Of a DNA stretch of 64,000 bases, positions 23,242-61,124 are shown piece after piece (positions within the stretch are counted from its first letter, which is position 1; each line of letters begins with the position of its first letter). A model generated the notes under the pieces. The model worked only from the letters and a program-made list of their open reading frames with translations. It searched no databases and was not told the origin of the DNA. Made by a program: the position numbers and the translations under genes. This DNA comes from Erythroxylum novogranatense (lineage: Eukaryota > Streptophyta > Magnoliopsida > Malpighiales > Erythroxylaceae): contig CM057228.1 in assembly GCA_029891385.1 (NCBI GenBank), positions 32,448,523-32,512,522 of the forward strand, in the 5' to 3' direction.

Positions 23242-24987
23242 AAATGGTGAAATTAAAGCTTATAGGCCCTCAAAGAGACAATTGCTTTATATTTCTACAA
23301 CATAAATCAAAAGCTAACACATTATTGGATGGTGCTTGAATAGAACAATAATATTTCAATATTATGAAATAATTGTTAAAAAAATTGATCCACATCAACC
23401 TCGAAAAGTAATAATGAAGATATTGATATGGTATAGAACAATTAAGATGTTTTCTTTAGTATATTTTTTAAAATTAAGTAGTTTGAAAACTTAAAAATTG
23501 TATTGAATCATCAGACAAAACCTATAGCAAATGAGATTTACCATAACAAAAATGGATAAAGAACATCAATGTACAAATTATAATACCATTACCTAAAAAT
23601 CTTGAAATTGACCAAAACCTTTTATGCAAAAGCTCTGCTCTATATCATAAAGTAATCACTTCCTCTCTCTTTTGTTTTTCTTTTTTCAAGATATTTGGCT
23701 ATAAAAGGCATTCATTGTAACAAATTGAGGTACGTAAACCTTTCTTTAAAATATATCAACTCTCTCCTCCCTATTCTTTATACTTATAATCTCTCTCACT
23801 GTTCTAGGCTTCTTCTAGTTTACAATATTAATGTAAACTATGCTTCTTCTCCAACCTCCATAAAACTTTGTAACCCTTGTTGTTACAAAATATTTTATTT
23901 ATATAAAACTCTTTTATGAAATAAAATGTTAGTTATTTCACTTGTCTCTTATTTACTTAAATTTCTTTATATTTTTATTATAAACATTACAATTTCTAGT
24001 AGACAAACTTTATCACCCATCAAGTTAGAGTACCTCAAAATTTTATACTTTATATTTTTATTTAGTAATAACTAGACTTGAACACAATTAATGCATTTTA
24101 AAATCTCAAAATTTGCTCTAAAATTTGGAGACTTTAAAATTATTTAATATTTTATTAAAATGAAAGATTCGTTTCATATTATACTAAATATTCTAGATAA
24201 TATGATTTAAATATTTGATTATTTCAAGACAATAAATAACATAACTAAATTAATGAATCATACAAATTCAAATATTTATGACTTAAATGATTAATATTTT
24301 CACTTTCAACGCAACCTTACCTATTCAATCAATTTTATCTTACCAACAACAAATATAAGATAGTTAACAACTAAAGAGAATTAAAAATACAAATTTTAAG
24401 TGAGGGATAAGAACCCTTGAAAGACTTTTTATATGTTATACTTTTTACTAGTTGTTGATAGCTACAAATATGTAAACAAGAAGATTAATTAGTAAAGTTA
24501 AAGTTGCCACACCATCTATGTCATTATATGCAACAAACTGTCATTATTGAATTTGTGGAACTTGAAAAAAAATTAAATTATACCAAGTGTAATAATTGAT
24601 GACACTTAGCAAAAAAAACCCTATAGTAAGATTAACATGTCGATATTAGAGTAATTCTTATTAAATTTTTTGCAAATTGTAGCAAGAAAGAAAAGAGTTA
24701 AATATAAGTATATCTTTAAATTGAAACTACAATAAGTAATCAAAATCAAATAAAATTTTCAGATATCATAAATGATTCAAGCTAATGGTTTAATCGAGTA
24801 AATCACCATATTATTATACTTAGATATAAACAATAGCCTGACACGCTTCAGTGTTAATAATATATTATTCGTTACTTTACTATTAATGGAACTGGATAAT
24901 GAATCAACACGTAAGATAGTCCATAAAAACTAGCTTAAGAGATGTCCTCAAACTTAAGAGAATTTTTATATATCATTTTACATATGA
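23242..24987. other. AT-rich non-coding stretch up to the CACTA insertion
   Basis: No supported gene is seen. The open frame at 23695-23919 shows no recognisable motif. The last three bases (TGA, 24985-24987) are the target duplication of the CACTA element. Confidence 0.5.
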
Positions 24988-25003
24988 CACTACAAGAAAA
25001 TTG
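24988..25003 (+). repeat. Left terminal inverted repeat of the CACTA element
   Basis: CACTACAAGAAAATTG, matching the right end at 15 of 16 positions. It is immediately preceded by the TGA target duplication. Confidence 0.95.
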
Positions 25004-25007
25004 ACGT

Positions 25008-25400
25008 TCTCCGACGGAATATTCCGTCGGCGAATTCGTTGTTTCCGTCGGTAATTTATTTTGCTGACGGAACGCGACGAAGGAAGAAACCGTCGTAAAC
25101 ATGGTCGTCGTTATAACTTACCGACGGAAATATTCCGTCGTATTTTATCAACGGGTAACCGACGGAATATTATCCGTTGTTGTTATGTTGCGACGGACAT
25201 TGATTTAAAATGGCATCGATGAAATGTCGGTATAATTTAGGGACGGAACCACCGTCGCAAATATTTGGTAGTAAGTTGTATAGTTAACGACGGAATTTCG
25301 GACGTCGGCAAATTTAGTCCAGGTTATGTGCCGACGGTAAGTGCCATTCCGTCGGCAAATATTCACCGACGGAATTGTTTATTCCGTCGGTGAAATTAAA
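25008..25400. repeat. Left subterminal repeat array of the CACTA element
   Basis: More than fifteen copies of a CCGACGGAAT / ATTCCGTCGG word occur in both orientations, many paired as short hairpins. In En/Spm-type elements such arrays bind the TNPA-type protein that the accessory gene encodes. Several copies have a mutated CpG. Confidence 0.85.
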
Positions 25401-25424
25401 ATGGTGTAACCCAATAACATATAT

Positions 25425-25572
25425 AATTGAACATCCACACATCAACCAGTACATCAAAGCTTTGAATAATGCTAATTGTTATACAATTGGATGTACATAA
25501 TTGGACATCCACACATCAACCAGTACATCAAAGGTTTAAATAATGTCAATTCTTATTCAATTGGATAAAAAC
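25425..25572. repeat. 74-bp tandem duplication beside the left subterminal array
   Basis: Two adjacent units, 25425-25498 and 25499-25572, share ACATCCACACATCAACCAGT and the following ACATCAAAG-TTT--AATAATG. They differ at about ten positions. They lie in the 3' flank of the accessory gene. Confidence 0.75.
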
Positions 25573-25629
25573 ACATCAAAGTGAACATAAATTGTTATGT
25601 TTGTACCTTAAAATAATGAGTTCAAATAG

Positions 25630-26897
25630 CTATAGTTGTGGTGATCGTTGGTGATCCTTTGTAGAACTTCCGTTCAACTGTTCGAACGGTGGTTGCAACT
25701 GAGCCATCTGCATAATCTCTTCTCTCATCTTCGCCATCTGCTCTCTCATCTGTAGTTCCATCTGCTCCCTGATTCGTTGCTCCTGCTCCCTCATCCGTTG
25801 TTCCTCCCGCTCTGTCTGCTCCCTCATCCGTTGTAGCTCCCGCTCTGTCTGCTCCCTCATCCATTGTTCCTCTCGCTCTGTCTGCCCCTCTTCCAAATGA
25901 GCAATCTTATCCATTAATATTTGTACTGTGACCCGGAGCTCGATGACTTCATTGTTGTTCGATAGCCTAGTGGACGCTGCTGTATTAGACATGGAAGATT
26001 GGGAATAACATGTGTTTCCATACGAACCTAGACCAAATATCCTGCCACGGCGATCCCTACCACCCACGGCCTCAAAATACATCTGAGACACGTCTACAGG
26101 CTGTTCCTCCTGCGACTGTAGCTCAAGGGTTTGTTGTAATTGGTCCTATAAGGTATGTGAAGTTAACATTAAGACGAATGACGGGAGCAATATATAGAAA
26201 TAAATAAAATGCAATAACTGGACATACATTCAGCTCTCGACAGCGGTTGTTGATGAAGGTTACACCGTCATGCTTCTTAGTGTGAGTGTGCAGAAATAAC
26301 TGAAGGGGGGTAGGCTTCGTCCCCAATGATTTCTCCTACATGAGAAAGACTAAAAGGTTAGATGTGAACTAGAAATCGTTTAAACCTCGGCAGAGGTTCA
26401 TAAAGTTGTATGATATTCGCCTCCAGTTGGACAAAGAAAATAAGTCAACACAGCCATAAGTGGCACCATATAGGTAGACCATTATCATTATCCATAATAC
26501 AACGAAGCTAACTATCGACAAAATTAGTGTAAAGTGTAGATACTTACAAGTCTGTCTGCATGCTATTGGTGAGTTATTGAGCCTCTTGTATGTACGGGAA
26601 GACTCTGTTGACCTGGACCTCTACGTCTGTTGGCCGAGTTATGTCCTGAGATGGACATTGCTGCAGGTGATGCCTAATATGCTAGCCAACGACTCCAAAT
26701 ATCTTCCAAAATAAAGCGGGGTCGTGCACCAGCCTTGTTTATCGCGTTAATGAAGTCGCGATAACATGTACGAGCTTGCCTCTCCCAGAATTTGTATATG
26801 CTCCCATCCAAAGTAGCATCCCAGAAAAATGCTTTCTGATTAAAGAAAAAAAAATATGTTAGTTAATGTCAAACTATATATATATTAATCATGACAC

Positions 26898-26929
<32 letters not shown>

Positions 26930-27460
26930 ATAACAGAATAATTATTATACCTCGAACTCATGAAAGTACAATTGTTTCGTAGCTGCAGTGATATTCTTCC
27001 ACATATATCCATCAGGTTCAATCCTTTCCTTAAAAGTGGACGTCATCTACCTGGAAACTATTCCAGACGGTACGAACCTAAAACAAGAAGTCATTGTTGT
27101 GTACAAATAGACTGAAAATAGAAAGGCTTAATCGACTAGGAACAGTGCGTAATCCTATCATATTACTTACTGGTCATTGATGTAAGTGATATACTTTTGC
27201 CCATCATCTCCTACAGATCCAGGTTGTCGGGCATGTCCTCCATCCCCTATTGTGGTATTGGATGATAAATGAGTTGGCGTAGGGGATGGTGTGACATTAG
27301 TAGCAGCAGGTGATAGCTCATCTGCAAAGGGAGGATGTGTAGGAGGAGGAGGTGAGTCAGTGCGAGTCCCAGACTGTGACGATCCACCTTAACACGGCTG
27401 GCCGCCGAACATCCCTCTAATCCTCGGCCGCATAACCTCACGTGGTCTCTTAGGTCCCAT
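25630..27460 (-). pseudogene. Ptta/En-Spm-type accessory gene (TNPA-like), five exons, with stops
   Basis: Five exons can be traced with GT-AG borders: 27460-27171, 27077-26951, 26835-26548, 26335-26228 and 26145-25630; phases join without shifts. Exon 3 gives 'KFWERQARTCYRDFINAINKA'-like sequence (part of the plant Transposase_24 domain). Exon 4 gives 'TKPTPLQLFLHTHTKKHDG', and exon 5 gives 'EAVGGRDRRGRIFGLGS', both hallmark blocks of the family. Exon 5 then has a coiled coil of EREEQRMREQ-like repeats (about 25690-25870). Such proteins bind the subterminal repeats and assist transposition in the nucleus. In-frame stops lie at 27391-27389, 27049-27047, 26676-26674 and 26565-26563. The frame is otherwise kept, so decay looks recent. 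The start at 27460 is the first ATG of the basic N-terminus (MGPKRPREVMRPR). Confidence 0.85.
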
Positions 27461-27695
27461 ATTAATGAATGAAATACAAAATTTATCGAATTCTGTACAA
27501 ATATAACAATCTTAAGAGCAATCGTTTAATGAAGTAATTTACATATAAGCCAATGTCATTGAAAGTTAACAAACAAGTTAACAACAACAAATCAACGTCA
27601 ACAATTATATAATTATGACTGTGTTTACCAGATTCAAACATATACAACAACAAACATCTTTTCAACTTTGTCGAATTATGTAATGCATGAGTAAA

Positions 27696-28312
27696 TTATT
27701 CCTTCAGATTCCATGTGACATGAGAGTCGGTATAAGTAAATGAGTCCCCCAGTTCTGGATTTCCGAGAAGCGTCCTGGCACGTTCAAATGAAGCTCGGGA
27801 AACAGTCAGACTTCTCCCACCAGGTGAAGGCCTTTGGACTCTTTCTCTCAATAACGTTTTGGCTATAGTCATACTTCGTGAGGAAATTGTAAATGTTTCG
27901 CCGCTCTTGGTACAGAGGACGAATTGTCCGGATGAACTACTACAAGGGGGAACAACAACTGATTTGTCATATCGGTCATATGTCGTAGTGTCATGGCTCT
28001 GGCCTCTACTGGCACTTATTTCTTCGTTGAGAATACAGGACGCTTTGAGCAACATGAAGTTAAAACCATCAAATTACTATTATGTTATGGGCACTTAAAA
28101 TAAGGAAATTAGATGTACAGAATAAGAAGACAGACGTAATAATCATAGCAAGCACCTTCAAGTAGAAGATTGGTCATGGATGGCAAACGAATCGGAGTGC
28201 TTTCCGCAACACTGTTTCCTGCAATGGTTATTCCCTGGGATGGGATAAATTTTCCACATTCCTCCCAACGGAAAGAATTATTACCGTAGGGAACCATTCG
28301 CCACATCGACAT
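27696..28312 (-). pseudogene. Captured fragment of a plant BRCA2 gene (N-terminus and BRC repeats) inside the CACTA element
   Basis: Exon 1-like sequence 28312-28156 starts MSMWRMVP and contains FRWEECGKF and PSMTNLLLEG. This is the order and spacing seen at the N-terminus of plant BRCA2 (M-S-x-W...FRWE..G...PSMxxLLLxG). It ends at G|GTGCTT, a possible donor at the equivalent intron place. After about 100 bp of intron-like sequence, 28055-27696 gives a BRC-like repeat (LCTKSGETFTISSRSMTIAK) and a second one (GGRSLTVSRASFERARTLLG, then NPELGDSF). BRC repeats bind RAD51 in homologous recombination. The acceptor is not clearly preserved and the region between the two repeats is shorter than in real BRCA2. 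It sits, same strand, between the two transposon genes, 75 bp from the transposase stop. It retains intron sequence, so it was captured as DNA, not cDNA. Confidence 0.75.
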
Positions 28313-28386
28313 CCCTTGAATAAGAATTGCAATGATTATAAGGAATAATGTATTTGGTACAGTAAATAGTCTATTACAAAGATAAA

Positions 28387-31300
28387 TTAATTGCTATTAG
28401 AACTTAAATGTAAATTACAATCATCTTCCTCGTCGGAAGAATAAGAATCAAACTCTTCCTCTTGTTCAGATCCATTGCTACCCTCGTCAGACTCTGCAGA
28501 TGAAATATCAACATAAGCGTTAGAAGGATCATGCAAAGGTTTTGTCTCGTCACACGTTATTGTATCATGAATAGAAGCCACGTCTTCTTGAAATGCTTCA
28601 CTGTCATTTCTCTCCTCTATGTTTGTATGGGATTCAAACACTCCCTTAGGTTTAACTTTGCACACCGCCAACCAATCCGCCTTATCACGTCGTAAGCTTG
28701 GAAAAGGGACATAACACACCTGTCTTGCTTGCATAGCCAAGATGAATGGTTCAAATTGTCTCAACCGTCTACGGAAGTTGATTTCAACGACATTGTATCG
28801 GTTATGAACTTTTGTTCCAACGTTTGGTGTCGGGTCATACCAGTCACATTTAAATATCACACATCGCTTAATTGGCAACGCAGGGTACTCAACTTCAAGT
28901 ATTTCAATTATTTTCCCATAATAGTCCATCAATTCTCCCTGTATCGAAACCCCACTGTTCATACTTGACATGGTATGTCCATGCGACTCTATATGGTATT
29001 TATATCCATTCACGAAATACACCGGATACGAGTGAACAGTTCGCAGCGGTCCCTTCGCAAGATCATAAATGAACTTGTTCTGTATTGGATTTTTCGCAGC
29101 CTATGTAACAGGAAGTAGCAAAGGAAAGGGTACAATGTCATCGGAACATGTTAACATCGTGGGTAACAATAGGAATAGTTTAAAGTGAGAACTTACATAT
29201 CATGCGAACCATCGAGGGAATTGTTTTCCAACTTCGTTATTCATGTCATCCTGTGTGATACCAGGCATGATCTCGTGCAACAATTCCTCGTATAAGCTGC
29301 ATATGAGATGACACCAATCAGAAACGGTCAACACATTAATAGTCCATCCATTGAGCATACCAGTTGTGCAACTCACTGTACGAATGGAAGAACCTCCTCA
29401 CAGTTCAATAAAATGTACCCATGTGCAGCATCAATTTCCTCCTCTGTTAGCATTCGTCTTGCTGCACGTCCAGATGTCCGTCCTGGATATGTAAAAATTG
29501 ACAAGTTCCCATCCGCACCACTTGTTCCTCCCCCATCGTCGTTACGAGGAACTTGTCTCACCCTTGTACGAGCATGAGACTCAAAATAATGTCCACAAAA
29601 CGTACTAGCTTCCTCAACTAAATAAGCATTACATATGGAGCCCTCAACTCTAGCTTTGTTTTTCACATTTTTTTTAGATGATGTAAATACCTATAATAAA
29701 GCATATGGTTATTACAATGTTCGGTACACACAATTGGTACAAATGGGTAACGATATGATAGTACAGGAGTTACCTCTCAAATGGATACATCCATCGATAT
29801 TGGACTGGACCGGCAAGTTTTGCTTCGTATGGTAAATGCACCGGTAGATGCTCCATGCAGTCAAATAAGCTTGGAGGAAAAATCCCTTCTAACTTGCACA
29901 AAATAACTAGAATTTCATTCTCTAGTTTTTCCATTTCATCTAAATTGATTTCAGATGATGTTAAGCTTTTGAAAAACAAGTTCAACTCCGTTAATGGTTC
30001 CCATACCTTAGAAGGTAGCAACTCGCGAAAGGCAATTGGAATTAGCCTTTGCATAAAAACATGACAATCATGACTTTTCATCCCAAATAATTTGTACTTT
30101 CTCATATCTACACACGTAGACAGGTTTGAAACATAACCATCAAGAAACTTGAGTCCTTTCAACCATTCACACAAACACTCCTTCTGTTGCTTGTCCAAAG
30201 TGTAACATGCTTTCAGATATTTACCGGTACGAACATCTTTATGTAACTCATGTCTTCTACAGAGCGCCCAAATCACTCTGGATTTGGCATTGTCTTTTGT
30301 CTTCCCTTTAATGTTCATAATCGTATTGAACAAGTTGTCAAACATGTTTTTCTCAATATGCATCACGTCCAGATTATGTCGTACCATATTTGTTTTCCAA
30401 TATGGTAAATCCCAAAATATGCTTCGTTTTCGCCAACCAAAGTTTTGACTGATGCTTCTATTTACTTCATCGGCTTCAAATTCAGTTACTTTAAGCAAGC
30501 CCAATGCCTCAATCTCTTGCAAAATCTCAACACCACATTTCGGAGGTGGAGCTGGTTGTTTGACTGTCCTATTTGTCAAGAACTTATATTTATTGTGCCT
30601 AAACGGATGATCAGGAGGAAGGAATTTTCTGTGATTGTCAAACCAACTAATTTTGCCACCGGTTGGAAGATAAAACGCATCTGAATCATTGCCGCAATGA
30701 AGGCACGCCAACTTCCCAACAGCTCAACCGATAACATGGCCAAAGCCGAAGTCACTTATCGTCCACATTAAAGCTGCTCTCATGACAAAATTCTGTTTCA
30801 AAGATACATCATATGTTTGCACACCAGTTTCCCAAAGATGCTGCAATTCTAATATCAGCGGTTGTAAGTAAAAATCTATTTTCTGCTTGGGATTTGTTGG
30901 TCCTGGCACAATAACTGTAAGAAACATGTAAGCCTCTTTCATACACATCCACGGAGGCAAATTATAAGGAGTAATTATCACTGGCCAAGATGAATATTGC
31001 TGCCCGGATTGACCAAAAGGTTGGAATCCATCAGTCGACAATCCCAACCGCACATTCTGACTTTCAATTGCAAAGTGCTGATGGGTGTCATTGAAATGCT
31101 TCCATGCCAATGCATCTGATGGATGACGCATTACTCCATCTTCCTGATCGTGTTCAGCATGCCAGCTCATGTGACATGTAGTCACATCAGATGCATAAAG
31201 TCTCTGCAGTCTCGGAGTTAGCGGGAAATAATACATTCGCTTCCATGGAACTAATTTCTGTTTCATTGCACGCTTTCTTGGCTTAAACCTTGATTGTCCA

Positions 31301-32067
31301 CAAAATTTGCACTCATCTAAGTTCACATCATCTCCCCAGTACAACATACATCCCAACCGACAGCAATCAATTTTTTGCACTGGCAACCCAAGACCCCGAA
31401 TCAGTTTCTTCATATTGTAAAAGTTGTCAACCATTGAATGATCAGCGGGTAGTGATTCAGTATACCACTCCAGAATGTTATCAAAGCTACGATCCGATAT
31501 GTGTCCTTCACTCTTTACGTTCAAAATTTGCGCAATTGAAGACAATTGCGTCATTTTCTGACAACCGGGCCACAATTCTCGGTCAGCCGCCTGGAGTAAG
31601 TCAAAAAAATTTCGTGCTTCTGCGTTTGGTTCTTCTTCAACATTTACCGTATTTTTCTCAAAGGTATAACCGACCCCATCAAAGACCATTTGCTTGTACG
31701 AGTTTTTAGTTCCATGAACAAAATTCCCTCTACTTCCAACCACCCCTTCATACTCATTTACGTTGACAGACATTTGTGGTTCATTGCCCCTTGAGGTGCT
31801 ACAAATTAACGGTTCGCCATGCCGTGTCCACTCAAAATAATTGGGCACAAACCCTTTTCGCAGCAAATGTAACTTAACTTCATCAAGAGTAAGGAAACAT
31901 TTGTGCTTGCACTTGCTACATGGACATCTGATCTTTTGTCCATCCATATATGCACGTTGAGAGCATGCATAATGAATAAAACTGTCAACTCCATGCACGA
32001 ATTCAGGATTAATAAAGCCAGCAGGGGTTAATCGTCTATACATCCAAGATCTATCCTGGCAGCTCAT
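28387..32067 (-). pseudogene. TNP2-type CACTA transposase, four exons, two in-frame stops
   Basis: Exons with GT-AG borders are 32067-29774, 29690-29377, 29296-29197 and 29100-28387; the introns are 83, 80 and 94-96 bp and phases match. The start ATG at 32067 opens the transposase-associated domain (DRSWMYRRLT; Cys-rich RCPCSKCKHKC at about residues 47-57). The TNP2/Transposase_21 domain follows, with 'LGLSTDGFQPFG' (catalytic Asp) and 'VPGPTNPKQKIDFYLQPL' (second Asp region). Exon 1 ends in DUF4218 (HLPVHLPYEAKLAGPVQYRW) and exon 4 holds DUF4216 (VIFKCDWYDP) with an acidic tail. Family members cut and join transposon ends in the nucleus. TGA codons at 30726-30724 and 29202-29200 interrupt an otherwise open frame; the first lies before the Cys pair KLACLHC. 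Length and domain order are those of a full transposase. Confidence 0.9.
29691..29773 (-). other. Intron 1 of the CACTA transposase gene
   Basis: The minus strand reads GAGAG|GTAACT ... TATAG|GTATTT. Joining the exons gives the conserved ...FERYL...LKKNVKNKARVEGS order across the junction, which supports the splice call. Length is 83 bp. Confidence 0.8.
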
Positions 32068-32586
32068 AGCTGAGATACTGTTAATTTCAACCAGTCAATC
32101 AATTGTTAGTATAATTCATGTATGGCACATATAACAAGGTATGTCAGTATCATTAATTGTTATACGAGGATCATCTTTGAAAATTCGCAAGATTTTCCTA
32201 TCACATAATCATCCCCCTCTTACACATAAGAGAGCCCCCTGCATGTGAAAATACACTTCTATATTGGACAAGTAAAGCCAACTCACAACTAATCTCTAAA
32301 CTATATGTCCATACTATGCCTTGTCAACAACTCATGTTACTTATCAAGAATTAAACATTAATCTCAAAGCAATTCACAACCATACAAAATTTTCTGATTA
32401 CGTCAAATAATATTAACAAATATATGCTTAAAGTTACCACAATTGAAGTAAAAGTATAGTTGTCATTTCAATACCTGCGTAGGCTTCTCTTAACGTTCCT
32501 CAAAAGTATAAAAACTGGGGACAATACAGTTCCTACAATAAATAAAATAAAATTGTGACTTATCATATTGAGGCATCGTAGCATTT

Positions 32587-32868
32587 GTCATGCAATGATT
32601 GAACTCCTAATTGATTGAAATGGCTAATATAAGATTATAAAAATTATTGTTATATATGGAATTATTTTATTATTTTTTGTTCTTGGCCTAGTCTACTTGA
32701 TTTGAATTACCTTGAAATTCTCTTAAATTGTACTTGATTCTTTATTTAATTTTATCCTTTAAATAAAACATCTAAGACACAACAATGTTATATCTTTGTA
32801 TTATATTAAGGAAAATCACTCATTGATATATTTAATTAACTATTAAACAAAACTAAAAAGTAAAATTT
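32587..32868. repeat. Internal direct repeat of the CACTA element, copy 1
   Basis: It starts GTCATGCAATGATTGAACTCC and is repeated at 33081-33356 with about 90-95% identity and small indels. The copies share GAATTACCTTGAAATTCTC and AAATAAAACATCTAAGACAC. Copies start 494 bp apart. Confidence 0.85.
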
Positions 32869-33080
32869 GATCTATTAGGAAAACATTTTCAGCATCACAT
32901 ATATATATATTTGAGCCCTCAAAAGTTTCAAAATCCTCCATCATATTTAATAAATACTAGATTCAATACCATTTATTTTAAAAGTATTTTAATTTGTTTG
33001 AAGATTAAGAATTTGTTTAGTTCAAAATAATTAAATTTTCTCCTCATTATCAAAAGACTTTTCATTATGCCTCATAAATA

Positions 33081-33356
33081 GTCATGCAATGATTGAACTC
33101 CTAATTTATTGAAATGACTAATATAAGATTATAAAATGATTGTTATATATGGAATTATTTTATTCTTTTATGTACTTGGTCTACTTGATGAGAATTACCT
33201 TGAAATTCTCTTAAATTGTACTTGATTCTTTATTTAATTTTATTCTTTAAATAAAACATCTAAGACACAACAATGTTATATCTTTCTATTATAATAAGGA
33301 AAATCATTCATTGATACATTTAATAAACTATTAAACAAAATAAAAAGTATAAAATT
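33081..33356. repeat. Internal direct repeat of the CACTA element, copy 2
   Basis: Second copy of 32587-32868, same orientation. The 212-bp spacer between them is unrelated AT-rich sequence. Confidence 0.85.
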
Positions 33357-33759
33357 GTAATATTAAAAAATAATTAATTTACACTTTTCCATATTTTTAA
33401 TTAAAGATTGATTAAGTATCAATATTTAAAAATGATTTAATTAAGAAATATAAACATATTTTCTACTTTTATAACCTTAATAAATTAACAATATTACGAA
33501 TGAAAAACAAAACCAAATGCTTGACACATACAAGACGTTTTATTTTTTCATGACGTGTTATACAAATCATAACTAAAGGGGAAAATATATGAAAAAGACT
33601 GCTTGTTCCCACAAGAAGAGTCGTGTTACTCGTGTGTGTCTGTGTGTATACTTTTCTTTTATATAAGTTTTATTATATTTTATTAAAACTATTAATGACA
33701 ATCGCATGTTTCATTAGTTATTTTAAGTATTTATTAATTTATTTTAAATAATTAGATTA

Positions 33760-33766
<7 letters not shown>

Positions 33767-33809
<43 letters not shown>
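33767..33809. repeat. (TA)n microsatellite
   Basis: About 21 uninterrupted TA dinucleotides inside the CACTA element; a shorter (TA)n run occurs near 26895-26925. Confidence 0.95.
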
Positions 33810-33811
<2 letters not shown>

Positions 33812-34843
33812 TAAATAGAAATATATTTTAAATTTTAATGATATAAAGAAATTAAATAAGAATTAATGAAAAGTATTAAAAATAGTAATATAGTTTTCTC
33901 ATATAACACTACATTTTGGTTGCACTTTATTTTCATTACTCGTGGTAGTTATTAGTCAATTCCATACTACAATAAAGGACGGGGCACTTCATTTGAAAAT
34001 AATAATCTTTCTATGTGATGGGAATGAGAGTCATTTTTTATATAAGAATGAATTGAATTAAAAATCAATTACTAAATTAATAACTCAGCAGATTCAATAT
34101 CCTTTTCATTTGTTAACATTTTTCAAATATTGTTTCTATAAAAATCCACCAACTACTAACTTGCTTGTTCTTTTTAACATCTTTTAACAACTTAAACCAA
34201 AGAAATTCGCTCATTATTTTATTAATACTCTAGACCCATCACATACCAAACGAATTCACAATGCGTACTTTTCATTTTACTTTAAAAATTGCTATGAATC
34301 TCATTCCTAATTCAACTTTTATGTTCATTCTTTTCGTTCATACTAGTTCGATGCTTTCCTTTTTATTACTTTCAAATGTAAGCATATCATCTTTATAATC
34401 CTCATACTCACATTGAACACTAATATAATGATACTAGTTTAGTTCTACAACTCATAATACATTTCATCGAACACCTTGAGGTCAAAACCATCTCAACCCT
34501 ATCTACACACAAATCTTTAAATTCTTTCCATTCAATACATCCACAATAATCCCACAACACAAATCAACACTAATTTAACAAATCAAATGCATTAAATCAG
34601 TGAAAATCGACATCAAAACCACCGCAACCCACAAAACTCATGGTTTACCTTCGGAGTGTCCAGAGGAGAGAGGGAGCAGCTCGTCGCCGGAGAAGAGGGA
34701 AGGAGAAGGTCGCCACGTCGTCGGTGAAGACGGAAGGAGAAGGAGATTCGCTCAACGTCGCCGGAGGAGATGAGAGAAAGAGAAGAGGAGAGTCGGGGAA
34801 GGAGAGAAGGAAGACGGCTGCGTAGGGGATTTAATTTTATTTT

Positions 34844-35190
34844 AGCGACGGAAATTATCCGTCGGTGTAATTAAAAAAACCCGTCGCAGGGTTAAACCTG
34901 CTAACCTAGTTTCCTGATGCCGTTTTAAATATACCGACGGCTTATTTCCGTCGGTGAAATTTCTCCCGCCGAAAAATTTTGCCGACCGAATTTTAATTTC
35001 GTCCCTACTTACAGACGGTAACATATTCATTGGCATATTTTCGTCGCTATAACTCCCCGCCAAATTTTCCCTCCACCATTGGCAACAGATTTCTGTACCA
35101 TCGCAACTTTTCTTCTTTCACCGACGAATTTGTGAGTACCGTCGGAAATCACATACGATATAGTTATCGTCGATAAATTTCCGTCGCTAT
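34844..35190. repeat. Right subterminal repeat array of the CACTA element
   Basis: About ten copies of GCGACGG / CCGACGG / CCGTCGG words occur in both orientations, with more mutated members than on the left side. The array adjoins the right inverted repeat. Confidence 0.8.
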
Positions 35191-35194
35191 TTAA

Positions 35195-35210
35195 CAATTT
35201 CCTTGTAGTG
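35195..35210 (-). repeat. Right terminal inverted repeat of the CACTA element
   Basis: On the minus strand it reads CACTACAAGGAAATTG, differing from the left end at one position. It is followed by the TGA target duplication at 35211-35213. Confidence 0.95.
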
Positions 35211-36640
35211 TGATAAACAATGACAAGTAGTAATATAGCGCTGTAAATTATACTAAATATAACCAAATATAATGCAAGGGATAATCATCACTGTAAAACT
35301 TTCAAAGATATAAAGTCTTTAAGAACCCCATACATGTACATATAATATCCAAACAATGATAGATCTAGAATAGTCACAAAATGTAAAAGGGTAATTAGAC
35401 CTATAATTTTTGAATCAAAGTAGGGATAGCATACCTGAGGAGTAGAGAGTAAACAAAAAGAAATGAATTTTTGGATTTTTTAGGGAAGTAACAACTTTGT
35501 TAAAGAAGGAAAAAAAATAGAGTATAAGTTAGTGAGAATAAAGAGAGCATTTGGCAAGAAAAAAATCATCTTAATATCTCTTACTATGTCTTTATTTTAA
35601 TTTTAACTTTATTTTTATAATTTTTTAATCCTTTTTTAAAAGGCAATATAATTTATCCATATTTTTTTAAAAATAGCCTAAATCGGATTATGCAGCCTTG
35701 AGACCTTACACTTTGATTTAAGTTTTTCTCTTCATTTTCATTTAGTTTTCTTAATGTCTTCACCTTTTAATTTTCAGATTACGTAACCTCGACAACTTTA
35801 CACTAAAGACATCAAGAGAGTGGACTAAAAATAAAGAGCTTACTAGTGCAATGCACCGTAATATGAGAGTAGTTTGGGGCATTAGAAGAACAAATAAAAA
35901 TAAAAGGATGAGGCAATCGGGAAAACAACAGATAACATTGGGCTAGAATTGAAGAAAGTTAAAAGTTTAAGTATTTTATTGTCATTTTTTAATGTTTGGG
36001 TTATAATTAAAAAATTGAAAGTTTGAACATTTTATTACCACTTTTTAAAGTTCGGGATATAATTGAAAAATTGACAACAATTTAATGTTTTTTTAGTAAT
36101 TAGCCCAAAAGTTAAAAATACAATTATGCTTTGAATCATTTTCTTCAATCTTCATTCGAAATATCCATGATCTATATATAGTCTTACTAATAAATAAGAT
36201 TTAATTCTATACTTTATATTTGTTTTACATTTTAGTATTTAGTATTTCGTATCTAGTTGGTAATTCACCGCTTTATGCTTTAATTTATTTCTTTATTTAT
36301 GTTTCATTACTTTAAGGTGCATATTTAAAATATTAAGACAAAAGTACAACGAAAGAAAACAGTTCTTATCACTATTAAAACCAAAATTATACAATTAAAC
36401 TTTCAGAAGAATAGATATTATTAGAAGAATAGTCAATTCAACTTGTTATTTATTAAACTTCTATTTGAAAATATTAGGAACATTATATATAACTTAAAAT
36501 AAAAATCTCTATTAAAAATTCTTCAATAATTGTATTTCTCTTGTATAAAATGGATAAAACTCTATTTAAAAGAGTGTTATTGATTTTTCTAAATAATAGA
36601 TTATTTTTAAAAGAAAACTCTTTCTATACAAATAATTGTT
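35211..36640. other. Intergenic DNA between the CACTA element and the ABA receptor gene
   Basis: No gene is seen. A tandem duplication of about 57 bp lies at 35962-36075 (shared AAAGTTT-A--ATTTTATT and ATAATT-AAAAATTG words). The AT-rich DNA upstream of 36640 is the distal promoter region of the receptor gene; transposon insertion at 35210 placed the CACTA end about 1.76 kb from its start codon. Confidence 0.5.
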
Positions 36641-36649
36641 ACTTCAACA

Positions 36650-36972
36650 AACGGAGGTAAAAGAATCTTGTTTGTGTCCAAAATAAAAAAAGGGATCATA
36701 TATACCTATAATCTAACTACCCGAAATAAGTCCAAAAGACTTGCAAGTTGAACCTCAACTTGCATCTACTCCGTGCAGATTGATAAGATCACCAAGAAAA
36801 GTCTCTCTCTCTCTCTCTCGAATAATCATCAAACTAATACAAGTGGATAAAAAGAAACTAAACCCTCAATCCCTCTCCTTTTTCCATAAATAATTCAATC
36901 TTCTACTTTTCTCGTTACATTATTTGATCCTAAACCTAAGAAGAAATAGGTGTTAGTCCAAGACCCATCAAC
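36650..36972 (+). promoter_or_regulatory. Proximal promoter and 5'UTR of the ABA receptor gene
   Basis: The stretch is collinear with the decayed duplicate at 22840-23160, which shows that it moved as one unit with the gene start. It contains a TATATA box-like word at about 36698, a (TC)n run at 36802-36819 and pyrimidine-rich sequence typical of plant leaders. The transcription start was not determined. Confidence 0.5.
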
Positions 36973-37608
36973 ATGCCGTCGTCACTACAGCTCCAAAGAG
37001 CCACCACCACATCGACAGCCACGTTGGCCTTTCATAAGAAATCTCCTGCCACCGTGAACACGTGGAGGATTCCGGTTGCTTGGGACGTCCCGATACCTGA
37101 AGACGTGGCTGCTCATCATATGAGGTCTGTAGGGTCTAATCAGTGCAGCTCAGTAGCGGTCCAGAGTATCAATGCGACGGTGTCCACCGTGTGGTCAGTG
37201 GTCCGTCGTTTTGACAAGCCGCAGGTGTACAAGCACTTTCTCAAGAGCTGCCAAGTCATTCACGGAGACGGTGACGTGGGCACTCTCCGTCAGGTTCACG
37301 TGGTGTCGGGCCTTCCCGCCTCGTCAAGCACTGAACGCCTCGAGATTCTGGACGATGAACGACATGTAATGAGCTTTAGCGTTATCGGTGGCGAGCATCG
37401 GCTCACCAATTACAGGTCTGTCACGACACTGCACTCTTCGCCGATTGGGAACTCCACGGTGGTCATTGAATCCTATGTCGTTGACATACCACCAGGTAAT
37501 ACGAAGGAGGACACGTGTAGTTTTATAGACACGATTGTACGGTGCAACCTGCAATCGTTGGCTCAGATCGCTCAGAATATGAATAGGAATGATAAACATC
37601 ATGAATAG
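36973..37608 (+). CDS. PYR/PYL/RCAR abscisic-acid receptor, PYL4-6 type
   Basis: The single-exon gene encodes 211 residues, the usual size of the intronless PYL4/5/6 group. The START-like (Bet v 1-fold) hormone-binding domain spans about residues 40-202. Visible key features: pocket lysine in HFLKSC (K91, equivalent of PYR1 K59), gate loop SGLPA (112-116), E121 in STERL, latch GEHRL (140-144), Y147 and S149 in NYRSV, E166 in ESYVVD and N192 in RCNLQSL. The protein binds abscisic acid in cytosol and nucleus and then inhibits clade A PP2C phosphatases, releasing SnRK2 kinases. The Ser/Thr-rich N-terminus (1-30) is variable in the family. All key residues are present, so it looks functional. The ATG at 36973 is chosen because it is the first in frame and is matched by the duplicate upstream. 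The exact subfamily member cannot be fixed by eye. Confidence 0.97.
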   Translation: MPSSLQLQRATTTSTATLAFHKKSPATVNTWRIPVAWDVPIPEDVAAHHMRSVGSNQCSSVAVQSINATVSTVWSVVRRFDKPQVYKHFLKSCQVIHGDGDVGTLRQVHVVSGLPASSSTERLEILDDERHVMSFSVIGGEHRLTNYRSVTTLHSSPIGNSTVVIESYVVDIPPGNTKEDTCSFIDTIVRCNLQSLAQIAQNMNRNDKHHE

Positions 37609-44326: not shown

Positions 44327-45847
44327 ATGTCTACTATATCACCGTGAAGCATTCTTGATGCTAACAAGCTAGCGGGTAACAATTTTGATGATTGGTACCG
44401 CAATCTGAGAATTGTTCTCATGCACGAGAAACTTATCGATGTAATCGATAAACCCGTAATGGAAGAGCCTTCTGAGGGACTTGATGATGCTAATGCATTA
44501 GATGCATATTTTAAGTACAATGAGCAAAGTACTAATGCCAAGTGCATTATACTGGCATCAATGAGTTCTGAACTCCAAAGGCAGCATGAAGATATGAACC
44601 CTTCACAGATCATTGAGCATCTTAAGAAGATGTATGGGTCTCAAAGTAGGACTGCTAGATACCAGTTATCTAGATCCCTATTCAAGTCTGAATTGAAGCC
44701 CAAATCTCCTGTGGGATCCCATGTTCTTAAGATGATTGATCTTATAGAACAACTTGAGAAGTTGGGGTGTTCTCTAGGGAAAGAGTTGTCACAAGATTTG
44801 ATCTTGCAATCTCTTTCTGACATTTTTTCACCATTCATTGTTAATTTTAACATGAACAAGATGGACTGTGATCTTCATGAAATGCTCAACTTGTTGATCG
44901 ATTATGAAAATCAAGTCGCATCATCTGAGAAGGTGAAAGTGTCAGGGTCTGTGAACCTTGTTGGTAACTCTTCGAAGCGTAAGTGGAAGGGCAAAAAGAA
45001 GCCCAAGAAAAATCATTTTGCACCCAAGGGTGTTTTGAAAAAATCCAAGGGTGCAAAGAAGAGAATTGACCAAAAGGATGCTGAATGTTTCTTCTGCACA
45101 AAGAAGGGACACTGGAAAAGGAACTGCCCAGAGTATTTGGCTACTCTGAAAGACAAGAAACAAGGTGAGACATTTATGAAAAATGTTTTCATGATTTCTT
45201 TAACTACTATTGATGCTACAAAATGGGTATTAGATACTGGTAGTAGCTTTAACATCTGCAATATGTTGCAGGGTCTAAGGATCAGTAGGAGATTGAAGAA
45301 GGGAGAAGTAAAGCTACAAGTTGGGAATGGAGCAAGTGTTGCTGCCCTAGCTGTAGGAACTATTTCTCTTGTAATGCCTACAGGCAAGACTTTATTATTA
45401 GAAGATTGTTATTATGTTCCTAAGTTTGTTTCGAACATTGTTTCCATTTCGTTATTAGATAAACGTGGATTTCATACAATCTTTAAGAATAATCAATGTA
45501 ATATTTTTCATGGTGATGAATTATATGTCAGTGGTTATTTACAATATGGTCTTTATGTCTTACCTGAAATAGTTGTTTGTCCAATTATGAATGTTTCTGG
45601 TCATAAAAGGAAGAGAGATAATGAAGCAAATCAAACTTACCTTTGGCATTGTAGACTTGGTCATATTGGTGAGAAAAGAGTAAACAAGTTACACAAGGAA
45701 GGATGTCTTGGTCAATATGATTATGAATCATATGAAACTTGTGAATCTTGTCTCAAAGGCAAAATGACCAAATCTCCTTTTACTGGAACTGGAGAGAGAG
45801 CTAGTGAACTTTTAGGACTCATACATACTGATGTATGTGGTAGATGA
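44327..45847 (+). pseudogene. Copia gag, protease and start of integrase
   Basis: An ATG at 44327 opens the frame, but a TGA at 44345-44347 follows after six codons. The frame then stays open to 45847 and encodes ILDANKLAGNNFDDWYRNLR-type gag sequence. It carries a CCHC zinc knuckle (CFFCTKKGHWKRNC, about 45090-45130), the aspartic protease motif WVLDTGSS (about 45224-45247) and the integrase zinc-binding HHCC region (LWHCRLGH ... CESCLKG). It stops at TGA 45845-45847; the integrase core continues in another frame from 45844. Alternatively translation could start at the ATG at 44420, which would miss the gag N-terminus. Confidence 0.9.
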
Positions 45848-47310
45848 AAGTTCAAGCTAAAGGTGGATATTCTTATTTTATCACCTTCACTGATGATATG
45901 TCAAGATATGGATTTGTGTATCTTATGAAACACAAGTCTGAATCATTTGAAATGTTCAAAAGATTTCGTAGTGAAGTTGAAAAGCAAACTGGTAAGAGTA
46001 TAAAGGCACTAAGATCTGACCGGGGCGGTGAGTATCTTAGTGATGATTTTGTTGATTATCTAAGGCAAGATGGAATCTTGTCTCAGTGGACTTCTCCAGG
46101 CACACCACAACACAATGGTGTTTCCGAAAGGAGAAATCGAACCTTATTGGATATGGTGAGATCCATGATGGGGTTCACTGATCTTCCTATCTTCCTATGG
46201 GGATATGCTTTAGAAGCCGCTGCATATTTATTAAACAAAGTTCCCACTAAAGCAGTCACTAAAACTCCATATGAGATATGGAAAGGACGTAAGCCTAACC
46301 TAAAACATTTAAAAGTTTGGGGTTGTCCAGCATATGTCAAGAGATTGCAGCCAGATAAGCTTGAAGCTAGATCTGACAAGTGTAGATTTGTTGGTTATCC
46401 CAAGGAGACTATGGGATACTATTTCTATCATTCTTCTGAGCACAAAGTGTTTGTGGCTAGAAATGCAACCTTTTTAGAAAGGGAGTTCCTTAATGAAGGA
46501 AGTCATGGCGTAGAAATAGATCTTGATGAAATTGAAGATTCTAATGAATCAACACAAGCTCAAGAGCATCAGACGCATATTGAGCAACCTTTTCTTGATG
46601 TCTTGAAATTAACACATAAGGTACCAGCCTCAAACATTGAGGTGAGTGGACTGGTTAATGAACCTGTCCAAGAACCTATGCAACAACAAGATTAAGTAGA
46701 GGAAGAACCTATTGTACATGAGCCTCTTAGAAGGTCTATTAGGGATCGTCGTGCACCAGATAGATTAAACTTAATGGTGCAAGGTGACGAAGAGAATCAT
46801 ATTGATGATGACCCTAAGACTTACGAAGAGGCTATGGCAAGTCCAGATTGTGAGAAGTGGTTTAAGGCCATGGAATCCGAGTTAGAATCCATGAGAATCA
46901 ACAAAGTATGGACTTTGGTTGATCCCTCAAAGGATATAAAACCCATAGGATGTAAATGGGTATTTAAGAGAAAAATGGGAGCGGACGGGAATATTGAAAC
47001 CTATAAAGCCCGTCTTGTTGCCAAGGGATATAATCAAAAAGAAGGTATTGATTATGATGAAACTTTTTCCCCTGTGGCAATGCTTAAATCTATTCGGATT
47101 CTACTTGCTATAGCTGCATATTATGATTATGAGATATGGCAAATGGATGTGAAAACAGCTTTTCTTAACGGAGAGCTCAAGGAAGATGTCTATATGACTC
47201 AACCTGAAGGTTTCACGTTGCCATCTGCTCCTAATAAAATATGTAAGCTACAAAGATCTATTTATGGATTGAAGCAAGCTTCACGAAGTTGGAATATTCG
47301 CCTAATATAA
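45844..47310 (+). pseudogene. Copia integrase core and first part of reverse transcriptase
   Basis: The frame differs from the upstream gag frame (frame change at about 45844). Integrase core residues are visible in FITFTDDMSRYGFVY (first Asp), LRSDRGGEY (second Asp) and GVSERRNRTLL (Glu). A GKRP-like 'KVWGCPAYV' block follows. An in-frame TAA at 46693-46695 interrupts the linker before RT. RT then shows WVFKRKMGADG, RLVAKGYNQKEGIDYDETFSPV and QMDVKTAFLNGEL (first catalytic Asp). The frame is lost at about 47310. Confidence 0.9.
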
Positions 47311-48379
47311 CAATCGCAAAGTTTGACTTTGTTAGATGCGAAGAAGAGCCATGTGTGTACAAGAAGGTTAGTGGGGCGTAGTTATTTTCCTAGTCTGTAT
47401 GTAGATGACATATTGCTAATAGGAAATGATGTACCAACCATGCAAAAGACAAAGATTTGGTTATCTGAATGTTCTCCATGAAGGATTTGGGAGAAGCAGC
47501 TTACATTCTTGGAATCAAGATCTATAGAGATAGATCAAGAAAGCTGCTAGGACTTTCCCAATCCATGTACATTGATACTATTTTAAAAAGGTATCACATG
47601 GAAAATTCCAAAAAAGGTTATCTACCTATCGGTACTGGAATTTCTCTTAGTAGGGAGGATTGTCCTAAAACCCTAGAAGAAAGAGAACGCATGAGTAGGG
47701 TCCCATATGCCAACGCAGTGGGAGCTATCATGTATACCATGACATGTACAAGACCTGATGTGGCCTACGCGCTAGGAGTAGCAAGTAGGTATCAAGGTAA
47801 CCCAGGTGAGGAACATTGGAAAGTGGTTAAAACTATTCTTAAGTACTTAAGAAGAACTAAGGACCAATTCCTCATATATGGAGATTGTGAATTAAAGCTA
47901 ATAGGCTACACTGATGCTAGTTTTGCATCAGATAAAGATGATAGCAAATCTACCTCTGGTTATATTTTTACCTTGAATGGAGGAGCAGTGAGTTGGAAAA
48001 GTTCCATGCAAGCTCATGGTGATTGATTCTTGCCATCGAGAATACATAAATGCATGTGAAGCATTAAGGAAGTCATTTGGATGAAAAGTTCTTAATCGAA
48101 CTTGGCGTGGTTCCTTCAATAAAGGAAGCTGTTCCTTTATTGTGTGACACTACTGGTGCTATTGCACAAGCTAAGGAACCAAGGTCACATCAAAGATCCA
48201 AACATGTTCTGCGGAAGTATCATTTGATTCGAGAAATTGTTGAGCGTGAGGACGTTCAAATTCACAAGGTTGAAGGAAAGGAGAATGCTGCAGATCCCTT
48301 CACTAAGGCGCTTGGATCAAAGGAGTTTGATAAGCACAAGTGGAAGATAGGATTGAAGTTCATGAGTGATTGGGTCTAG
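47311..48379 (+). pseudogene. Copia RT C-terminal part and RNase H
   Basis: The YVDDILL catalytic block is encoded near 47398-47420 in a shifted frame. The piece 47469-48026 gives FSMKDLGEAAYILGIKI and then GYTDASFASDKDDSKSTSGY, the start of RNase H. Frame loss at about 48026 removes the expected ...EAEY block. The piece 48077-48379 gives CDTTGAIAQAKEP and NAADPFTKAL, the RNase H end, and stops at the TAG just before the PPT. At least three frame changes separate these pieces. Confidence 0.9.
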
Positions 48380-59402: not shown

Positions 59403-60290
59403 TGCTCCAAAATCAAATAAAATTAGGACTTTAAAATTATTTGATTACTCCCAATATTTTATTCAAAATAATAGCCCTCGTTATTAAATTGAGAAATTAT
59501 CAAATAATTTCCTAGTGGGCTAGGATCATATTAAAAATAATTAATCTTGAGTTTGTTCAACAAATCAACAAAATTTAAATTAGGTAGAAAACAACTTTCT
59601 CAATCACATCTCATGTGACTTTTAGAACAATTAGATTATAATTCTTTACCAAAATATATCATATATATTATTCCTAACATTGCCTCTAAATTCACACAAT
59701 CATGACTTTGCTCATCCAAATCATACAAATTTAGTTAAGTAGGACCTATCAATTTAAGATAAAATAGATATGGGTTTAAGTGGCCTTGAATTTACTTAAC
59801 AAACCAAGCAATAAACACAATTATGGTTTTATTCTTAAATAATAGAAGGCAATTATCACATTCCTAATGTGTACTTAATATTTAATTGAGGATTTAAAAT
59901 TTAAAATTTTCCAGTCTCATTAAAATAATATAATCTCATTATGTTTATAATTTAAAACATAATCTAATTATGAAAGAAATTATTAAAACCTTAGCTTGAT
60001 TCTAATTATTAATTTGATAACTAATTAAATTTAATAATTAAACTCTTAAAAATTAAACTAAATTCAAAAATTTTCTAATAAAATTCGCTTTGAAAATAAT
60101 TTTCAAAAATGGAAATACACCTTTTAAATTTTATTAGAGTATAAACTAATTTAATCTCCATTAAATTAATTTAATATTGAAATTAATGTTTTAAAAAATT
60201 TTAAAACAAATAAATAAAGGAAGAGAATGCCATAATAAAAAAAAAAGGAAACCTAACGCAAGCTTCCTTAGCGCTCACGCCTCCTCTGGA
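59403..60290. other. Leader of the second copia element and AT-rich DNA
   Basis: The stretch upstream of gag on the minus strand should contain the leader and 5' LTR, but neither a tRNA-binding site nor a copy of the LTR was recognised. The 5' end was probably lost before or at the junction with the LINE remnant near 60290. Confidence 0.4.
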
Positions 60291-61124
60291 GGCTGTTCAA
60301 CAATCGTCGACGGATGATGGAGAGGGGCGGGCCATGAAGAAAGTGAAGCATAGAGAAGAGCCACCATTGACGGGGTATCAGGACAGGCTTGTTTCTGGCG
60401 CTGCGGAGGAAACAACCATGAAGGATGTGGCTAATTCAATGAAGATTCGAGTGGATGAGGGAGACATAACGATTGACCGGAGTGGGAGGTTTCCGATCGT
60501 GACTCTCTCCGCTGGTCTGAAAGAAAGGTTGTGCACCCCTTTTAAGTACACCGTGATTGTAAACTTGCTTGGCAGGAGTATTGGGTACAAATCATTGTGT
60601 ACAAAGCTGGAGGGTATTTGGAATATGATTGGTGTGAAAGTTCTCGATGTCAGCAACGGGTACTTTATGGTGGATTTTGCTTCGGAGTCGGCTTACTTAG
60701 GTGCTCTACTTGAAGGTCCGTGGACGATTATGGGGAGTTATCTCCAAGTGTAACCATGGCACTCGAAGTTTCGTGTGTCATAATGCACACCTAGGATGGC
60801 GGTGGTATGGATTTGATTGCCATAGATGCCTTTACAATACTATTCGGAAGATATCATTGGACCTTTAGGCGAAGTAATGGGGAAGGTGATCAGAGTAGAT
60901 TATAATACGAGCGAATTGCAGAAGGGATGGTTTGCTCGGTTGGTCGTTACTGTAGATCTTGACAAGCCCCTTGTTCCCAAATTTTCTATTGATGGTGAGG
61001 AGTTCTCGGTTGAATATGAAAATTTGGATAATATTTGTTTTGGATGTGGGAGGTATGGGCATTCACATTCGTTTTGCTCTTGGAAACCTAAAGAAGTGTT
61101 GGATCGAAAAAAGAAAACATGCTT
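60291..61124 (+). pseudogene. LINE ORF1 (gag-like) remnant: DUF4283 and zinc-knuckle region
   Basis: The frame 60334-60753 contains the plant DUF4283 domain (LLGRSIGYKSLCTKLEGIW ... VSNGYFMVDFAS ... LLEGPWTIMGSYL). After stops at 60751-60753 and in the next 70 bases, the same frame continues at 60826 with LGEVMGKVIRVD and a zf-CCHC_4 knuckle (ICFGCGRYGHSHSFC, about 61036-61080). These nucleic-acid-binding proteins package LINE RNA. The stops fit C-to-T changes of CAA, CGA or CAG codons. The sequence is cut at about 61125 by the LTR of the next element; ORF2 is absent. Confidence 0.85.

Follow-up and report, generated by a model that had tools for sequence, protein, structure and literature searches.

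Our analysis of a 64,000-nucleotide stretch of the Erythroxylum novogranatense genome (hereafter, the window) identifies a CACTA transposon that carries, between its two transposon genes, a third gene of BRCA2 origin. This gene has been amplified with its element, goes back to a common ancestor of three element families (A, which includes the window copy, as well as B and C) and is under constraint, most strongly between family A and the two others. It thus seems that the 5' end of BRCA2 has been kept as a gene in its own right in at least three diverged branches of elements within one genome. The best reading of its sequence is that of a BRCA2-derived third transposon gene, which probably encodes a BRCA2 mimic.

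A complete CACTA element in the window

The element spans 10,223 bp (24988..35210), with its genes on the minus strand, and is flanked by a TGA duplication (24985-24987 and 35211-35213), its borders reading TGA/CACTA and TAGTG/TGA with the same TGA on both flanks. The terminal repeat CACTACAAGAAAATT at 24988 recurs in inverted orientation at 35196-35210, where it differs by one mismatch, and CCGACGGAA-type subterminal repeats are found near both ends. Its TNP2-type transposase is encoded on the minus strand in three parts, the first containing Transpos_assoc and Transposase_21 (30727..32094; Pfam PF13963, E=6.5e-22; PF02992, E=3.6e-57), the second the rest of Transposase_21 and DUF4218 (29773..30723; PF13960, E=1.3e-26) and the C-terminal one DUF4216 (28390..29100; PF13952, E=3.6e-21). 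Translation of the window copy reveals one in-frame stop, located between the first and second parts. The second transposon gene (25633..27460, minus strand, ATG at 27460-27458 by translation) is TnpA-like and degraded in the window copy, its matches to the Plant transposase family PF03004 being weak (E=0.0027 at 26126-26335, below the cutoff, and E=0.074). With its terminal inverted repeats, 3-bp target duplication, TNP2-type transposase and second gene, the element is a CACTA (En/Spm) transposon, as proposed in the preliminary description. A classification as Pack-CACTA, a non-autonomous type without transposase, was ruled out for the window element by its transposase domains.

Within the element's 5' region, which is AT-rich, a 221-nt segment and adjoining ones are directly repeated at a spacing of 488-494 nt (32587-33375), and other family A copies align unevenly here. 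Just outside the element, the plus strand contains an open frame with a Polyketide_cyc2/Bet v 1-like domain (36940-37605), which by its sequence is likely a host gene. Farther along the same strand lie stop-broken pieces of a Ty1/copia-type retrotransposon (gag, integrase and reverse transcriptase; 44348-48026) and an open frame that weakly resembles DUF4283, falling short of the curated cutoff (60214-60750).

Structure of the BRCA2-derived gene

The BRCA2-derived gene lies in sense orientation between the two CACTA genes, on the same (minus) strand as TNP2 and the TnpA-like gene, and the peptides originally noted in it are all in place on that strand. Exon 1 (28156..28312, minus; HMM E=4.9e-9) comprises 157 nt and runs from the ATG to a codon split at LLLE/G. 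It is followed by a GT...AG intron of 113 nt (28043..28155, minus; donor GT at 28155-28154, AG ending at 28043), whose GC content of 0.31 (31%) in the window copy compares with 0.45/0.46 in the flanking exons. Exon 2 (27696..28042, minus; HMM E=1.1e-12) encodes, in this order, a linker, a BRC2-like repeat, a last-BRC-like repeat and the tail DSFTYTDSHVTWNLKE, and ends with a TAA stop, giving a spliced open reading frame (ORF) of 167 aa. The ATG is located 74 nt past the TNP2 stop, and 235 nt separate the end of the gene from the start codon of the TnpA-like gene.

The three families share this arrangement, with differences in detail. In three loci of family A, 74-75 nt separate the TNP2 stop from the BRCA2-like ATG; in six loci of families B and C, this distance is 96 nt. 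Family A genes have two exons and 167 codons, those of families B and C three exons and 183 codons, with the spliced exons 2 and 3 of B and C corresponding to the single exon 2 of A. Over the last 77 codons, the reference sequences of A, B and C are equal in length and converge on the common tail GDSFT(F/Y)TxSHVxW; this equal length led us to dismiss the idea that the reading frame shifts at the last repeat. Intron 2 is present in B and C, there is none at the corresponding place in A, and the host BRCA2 exon is uninterrupted there; the difference represents an intron gain or a precise intron loss inside the transposon.

In all three families, the piece begins with an ATG and ends with a stop of its own, which makes its expression as a fusion, considered in the preliminary description, unlikely. 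The spacer preceding the ATG is AT-rich (26% GC) and has an AG just upstream of the ATG in 17 of the 18 copies printed, features which suggest that splicing over TNP2 could give access to this ATG, in the manner of tnpA in En/Spm.

Relationship to plant BRCA2 proteins

To relate the gene to plant BRCA2, we used 120 proteins, listed from among 204 matches in a control search with the start of Arabidopsis BRCA2 (7998 candidates scored). Selection for the start motif (4 dropped, leaving 116), removal of redundancy (85) and a last-BRC anchor (73) yielded the 73 N-termini underlying our HMM. Of the 1945 six-frame ORFs of 20 aa or more that the window contains, this HMM matches the two exons alone, in the expected order; the E-value is 3.7 for the runner-up ORF and 2.8 for the top ORF of the reversed window. 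In blastp searches of the 120-protein set (cutoff E of 1), the spliced 167-aa ORF matches 120/120 of the plant BRCA2 proteins obtained, with a best E-value of 7e-10, and ten proteins from families B and C score 78.5-90.6 bits against the plant BRCA2 profile (best domain, 54-61 bits). The BRCA2 identity originally proposed is thus borne out by both HMM and BLASTP matches.

The HMM match spans the N-terminal box, the BRC2-like unit and the last BRC, whereas BRC1 is barely recognizable in the window piece and profile positions 147-241 (about 95), between BRC2 and the last BRC, lack a counterpart. Both the order and the spacing of the parts had been said to follow plant BRCA2; the order does, but the spacing does not. 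The best-kept part is the box MSxWxxVxDxxNSFRWEECGK...RLPSMxDLLxE and, judged by its sequence, the element gene contains a plant BRCA2 N-terminal box. The window copy retains 25 of the 37 near-invariant BRCA2 residues that it covers, compared with at least 0.91 in the plant BRCA2 proteins compared. Decay as the cause of these losses in the window copy was dropped as an explanation, as other copies retain some of the residues (D9, D48).

Pfam did not recognize a BRC repeat (PF00634) in the scanned proteins of the three families, one cut piece reaching E=0.091, below the cutoff, or a helical/OB DNA-binding domain in any of the 11 scanned pieces of the element, all of them free of stops. Two protein-database searches with the window ORF produced no match at E<=10, Pfam and PDB searches with the BRCA2 piece alone returned nothing usable, and a scan of viral contigs gave no match.

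Capture of genomic DNA from a BRCA2 gene

The BRCA2 gene of the host itself is located within C8:96796500-96805900 (minus strand) of the 1.3 Gb genome and, among the 120 proteins listed, is nearest to the BRCA2 proteins of Jatropha, Ricinus, Dovyalis and Populus, which points to the Malpighiales. Its exon 1 ends at LLLE-G, its intron 1 sits at exactly the position of the element's intron, and its BRC repeats are encoded in exon 2. A donor GT directly follows the 157 nt of exon 1 in the host gene as well as in 37/37 element copies. At the DNA level, the homologous exon 1 of the elements is 59-61% identical to that of the host in the six copies compared. Since intron 1 is common to element and host while exon 1 has diverged to this extent, the element must have captured genomic DNA, as the preliminary description had surmised, and it must have done so long ago.

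This divergence also bears on the proposal that the insert might serve as a source of siRNA that silences host BRCA2. The high copy number of the elements (see below) and the siRNA yielded by captured sequences in maize, according to a review of plant gene capture (PMC13317346), would be consistent with such a role. However, on top of the low identity of exon 1, 0/37 copies share an exact 18-mer with host BRCA2, the longest common stretch being 14 nt compared with up to 16 nt for shuffled sequences. A function in silencing the host gene is therefore extremely unlikely.

Elsewhere in the genome, a 1.7-kb stretch of the 3' part of host BRCA2 occurs twice more at about 95% identity, at the loci L018 (C9:110070500-110077500) and L019 (C12:3822500-3829500), within a 4.9-kb block shared by C9 and C12 at 98.8% identity. 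These loci contain another duplicated part of BRCA2, which is perhaps mobile.

Amplification in three element families

The preliminary description had raised the possibility of further CACTA copies with the same insert, and these proved to be numerous. A search with the 617-bp piece retrieved the window and at least 39 other places (40 places scored of 1074 candidates), which are 94-96% identical to it over 608-617 bases. The BRCA2 query listed 28 exon-1 places, all of them from the two further CACTA families, B and C, whose TNP2, over the parts aligned, is ~75% identical to that of the window element and which carry the BRCA2-derived gene at the same place. In nine of ten B/C loci of 9.9 kb, the TAGTG end, TCTTGTAGTG, is followed by differing flanks. 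A query with one protein of family C gave at least 206 matches (150 of 2916 candidates scored), and 122 of the 150 matches listed lack an internal stop by hand count, although these are the best-scoring ones, biased to intact copies, and one copy may account for several of them.

We read 37 copies in total (A, 9; B, 15; C, 13), those of family A corresponding for the most part to the top matches of the window piece at the DNA level. A complete spliced ORF of 167 or 183 aa is present in 14 of them (A, 4/9; B, 5/15; C, 5/13), another 19 have broken ORFs, and 4 were left unscored; as the B and C copies were chosen by protein match to exon 1, this exon is biased toward being open. The BRCA2 piece has turned out to be amplified, old and constrained, which goes beyond what the preliminary description foresaw.

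In principle, different CACTA families could have captured BRCA2 several times independently, and the identity of only 61-64% that family A shows over the region to the majority of B and C copies might be taken to point in this direction. However, six element copies form one clade with a support of 1.0 relative to host and plant BRCA2 proteins, albeit on a long branch, and the gene occupies the same site between TNP2 and TnpA. Moreover, A, B and C have in common the EECGK motif, the loss of the FxxA phenylalanine, the gap between the BRC units and the SHVxW tail, none of which is seen in host BRCA2. Repeated capture is thus very unlikely. The element clade is placed next to the Brassicaceae, and the tree does not indicate the plant lineage of the donor.

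Selective constraint

Between families, the NG86 dN/dS of exon 1 is 0.24 (A-B), 0.40 (A-C) and 0.40 (B-C), and that of the last exon, determined for 36/37 copies (L040 left out), is 0.26, 0.29 and 0.29, respectively, with Fisher p values on mean counts of 6.5e-6, 6.7e-5 and 0.0012. As a yardstick, the C-terminal part of TNP2 (15 copies including the window; L023, L029 and L035 left out) shows values of 0.27 (A-B), 0.23 (A-C) and 0.40 (B-C). The between-family values of the BRCA2-derived exons (0.24-0.40) are thus like those of the transposase. In pairwise maximum-likelihood codon tests on exon 1 plus the last exon of five copy pairs, omega is 0.22-0.33, and omega=1 is rejected (p about 3e-5 to 2e-9). 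The parts of the gene differ in this respect: in five intact B-C pairs, the linker exon has an omega of 0.85-1.42, not different from 1, whereas the last exon has an omega of 0.24-0.36 (p <=0.0052) and exon 1 one of 0.32-0.47 (p 0.012-0.12, with three pairs not significant at 0.07-0.12).

The comparison of B with C requires caution. Its replacement changes (0.124 per site) do not differ significantly from the synonymous changes in TNP2 (0.166; p=0.25, 155 synonymous sites assumed), while A-B and A-C are significant against the same yardstick (p 3e-6 and 1e-5; 155 sites assumed). The synonymous divergence between B and C in exon 1 (0.425) and the last exon (0.384) exceeds both that of TNP2 (0.188) and the difference in intron 1, which amounts to only 15-18%; intron 1 of A aligns with that of B or C no better than shuffled sequence. 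Given the small difference in intron 1, the low omega between B and C rests partly on the high dS of the exons and, with B-C weak by both the TNP2 and the intron yardsticks, the strong case for constraint is that of A against B and C. The element gene is thus a conserved, constrained ORF across diverged elements, with a weaker case for B against C alone.

These data also need to be viewed in light of the possibility that a BRCA2 fragment was captured once and has since been copied along without function, like most transduplicates. Captured fragments mostly decay, according to the review cited above (PMC13317346), and the residues lost from the window copy as well as the weak B-C comparison are consistent with such a fate. 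Likewise, within families A and C, exon 1 appears to have changed neutrally (dN/dS of 1.60 and 1.22, compared with 0.40 within B); for the last exon, the corresponding values are 0.48 (A), 0.82 (B) and 0.58 (C). However, the low omega between families and the distinct behavior of the linker exon speak against a functionless passenger. In addition, the start, splice sites and stop are common to all three families, and in neutral simulations with 0.3-0.4 substitutions per site, a lineage remains free of stops with a probability of only 0.005-0.016. We therefore regard passive copying as unlikely. An earlier simulation on the window copy alone had given a probability of 0.025-0.43, and the comparison of families took its place.

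Possible function of the encoded protein

Considering all lines of evidence together, it is likely that an ancestral element captured the 5' end of BRCA2 and that this piece became a constrained third gene encoding a putative BRCA2 mimic that binds a partner in DNA repair. According to this model, the ancestor of at least three CACTA families would have taken up exon 1, intron 1 and part of exon 2 of a genomic BRCA2 copy. The captured piece would then have lost the BRC1 core, the stretch from BRC2 to the last BRC and the FxxA residues that grip RAD51, and it carries what appears to be a new tail, not seen in host BRCA2. In this form, it would have been established between TNP2 and TnpA as a gene for a protein of 167-183 aa, with purifying selection acting on exon 1 and the last exon during the divergence and amplification of the families.

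The most obvious activity of such a protein would be that of a decoy whose BRC-like repeats bind the recombinases RAD51 or DMC1, so as to block or recruit them. Two BRC-like units have been kept, and the BRC2-like one ends in LLRE (A) or LLQE (B and C), reminiscent of the LFDE module, a hydrophobic-hydrophobic-x-Glu/Asp motif (PMC12412785, PMC8219027). However, the FxxA site, whose Phe and Ala occupy pockets in human RAD51 (PMC8219027), reads LCTK (A), YHSQ (B) or YHSK/YHSM/YHYM (C) in the first unit, where human BRC4 has FHTA, and the second unit lacks a Phe at this place in every family, with B keeping the Ala (QRTA). By contrast, the BRC repeats described from rice and moss retain the Phe (PMC12611145, PMC12412785), and the LFDE half-peptide of human BRC4 on its own is reported to bind very weakly, if at all (PMC8219027). 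As far as its sequence indicates, the element gene thus does not contain a BRC repeat with an FxxA motif. Because the critical Phe is missing from both units in A, B and C, the RAD51-binding BRC peptides envisaged in the preliminary description are improbable, and a recombinase decoy appears a distinctly poor candidate.

Since the FxxA grip looks lost while the N-terminal box is the best-kept part of the protein, we favor a mimic based on this box over a RAD51 decoy. The protein would arise from a spliced form of the element's own transcript, bind a partner of the N-terminal box of plant BRCA2 and thereby tilt the repair of breaks caused by excision or insertion to the benefit of the element. 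It is tempting to speculate, although we are somewhat less than evenly confident of this specific scenario, that the CACTA-encoded mimic uses the box to intercept the host homologous recombination machinery and steer the repair of its own breaks, having shed RAD51 binding. More generally, the captured gene raises the possibility that the transposon disturbs host DNA repair or exploits it. A constrained piece of a host recombination mediator in a cut-and-paste transposon would, in plants, tie DNA transposition directly to homologous repair at the molecular level. In addition, the captured piece singles out the N-terminal box of plant BRCA2 as a possible functional module: as the element has kept this box and lost the known RAD51-binding residues, the identity of the box's partner becomes a testable question.

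Comparison with known systems

The element gene resembles plant BRCA2 in its N-terminal box, its exon 1/intron 1 structure and its BRC2- and last-BRC-like units, but differs from it in lacking the FxxA motif, the BRC1 core and, as far as the 11 scanned ORF pieces show, the helical/OB domain, and in having another tail. In the open-licence literature covered by our searches (BRCA2, BRC or RAD51 combined with CACTA, transposable element or transposase), we found no report of a BRCA2-derived CACTA gene, and the word BRCA2 is absent from the main text of a 2026 review of plant gene capture, which names Ulp1-bearing VANDAL elements as a conserved case (PMC13317346). These KIU genes of VANDAL-type MULEs (captured Ulp1 domain, Kaonashi) provide a parallel in that a host domain has been kept as an element gene across diverged elements; however, they combine a MULE with an Ulp1 domain rather than a CACTA element with BRCA2, and the elements bearing them have a known role in demethylation (PMC13317346). 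The RPA genes of Helitrons and Helentrons likewise represent a host replication/repair protein turned accessory gene, which has been proposed to help transposition. In their case, however, the elements are rolling-circle transposons and the DNA-binding domains of RPA are recognized (PMC4067079), whereas the CACTA gene has lost the known RAD51-binding residues. Host-derived inserts have also been described for CACTA elements, in Chenopodium (PMC8978399), in Tgm-Express1, whose insert includes introns (PMC1947982), and in Pack-CACTAs (PMC13317346), in each case as gene fragments. Unlike these earlier captures, the BRCA2-derived gene forms an intact, constrained ORF that is found in three families, in elements that also carry transposase sequence.
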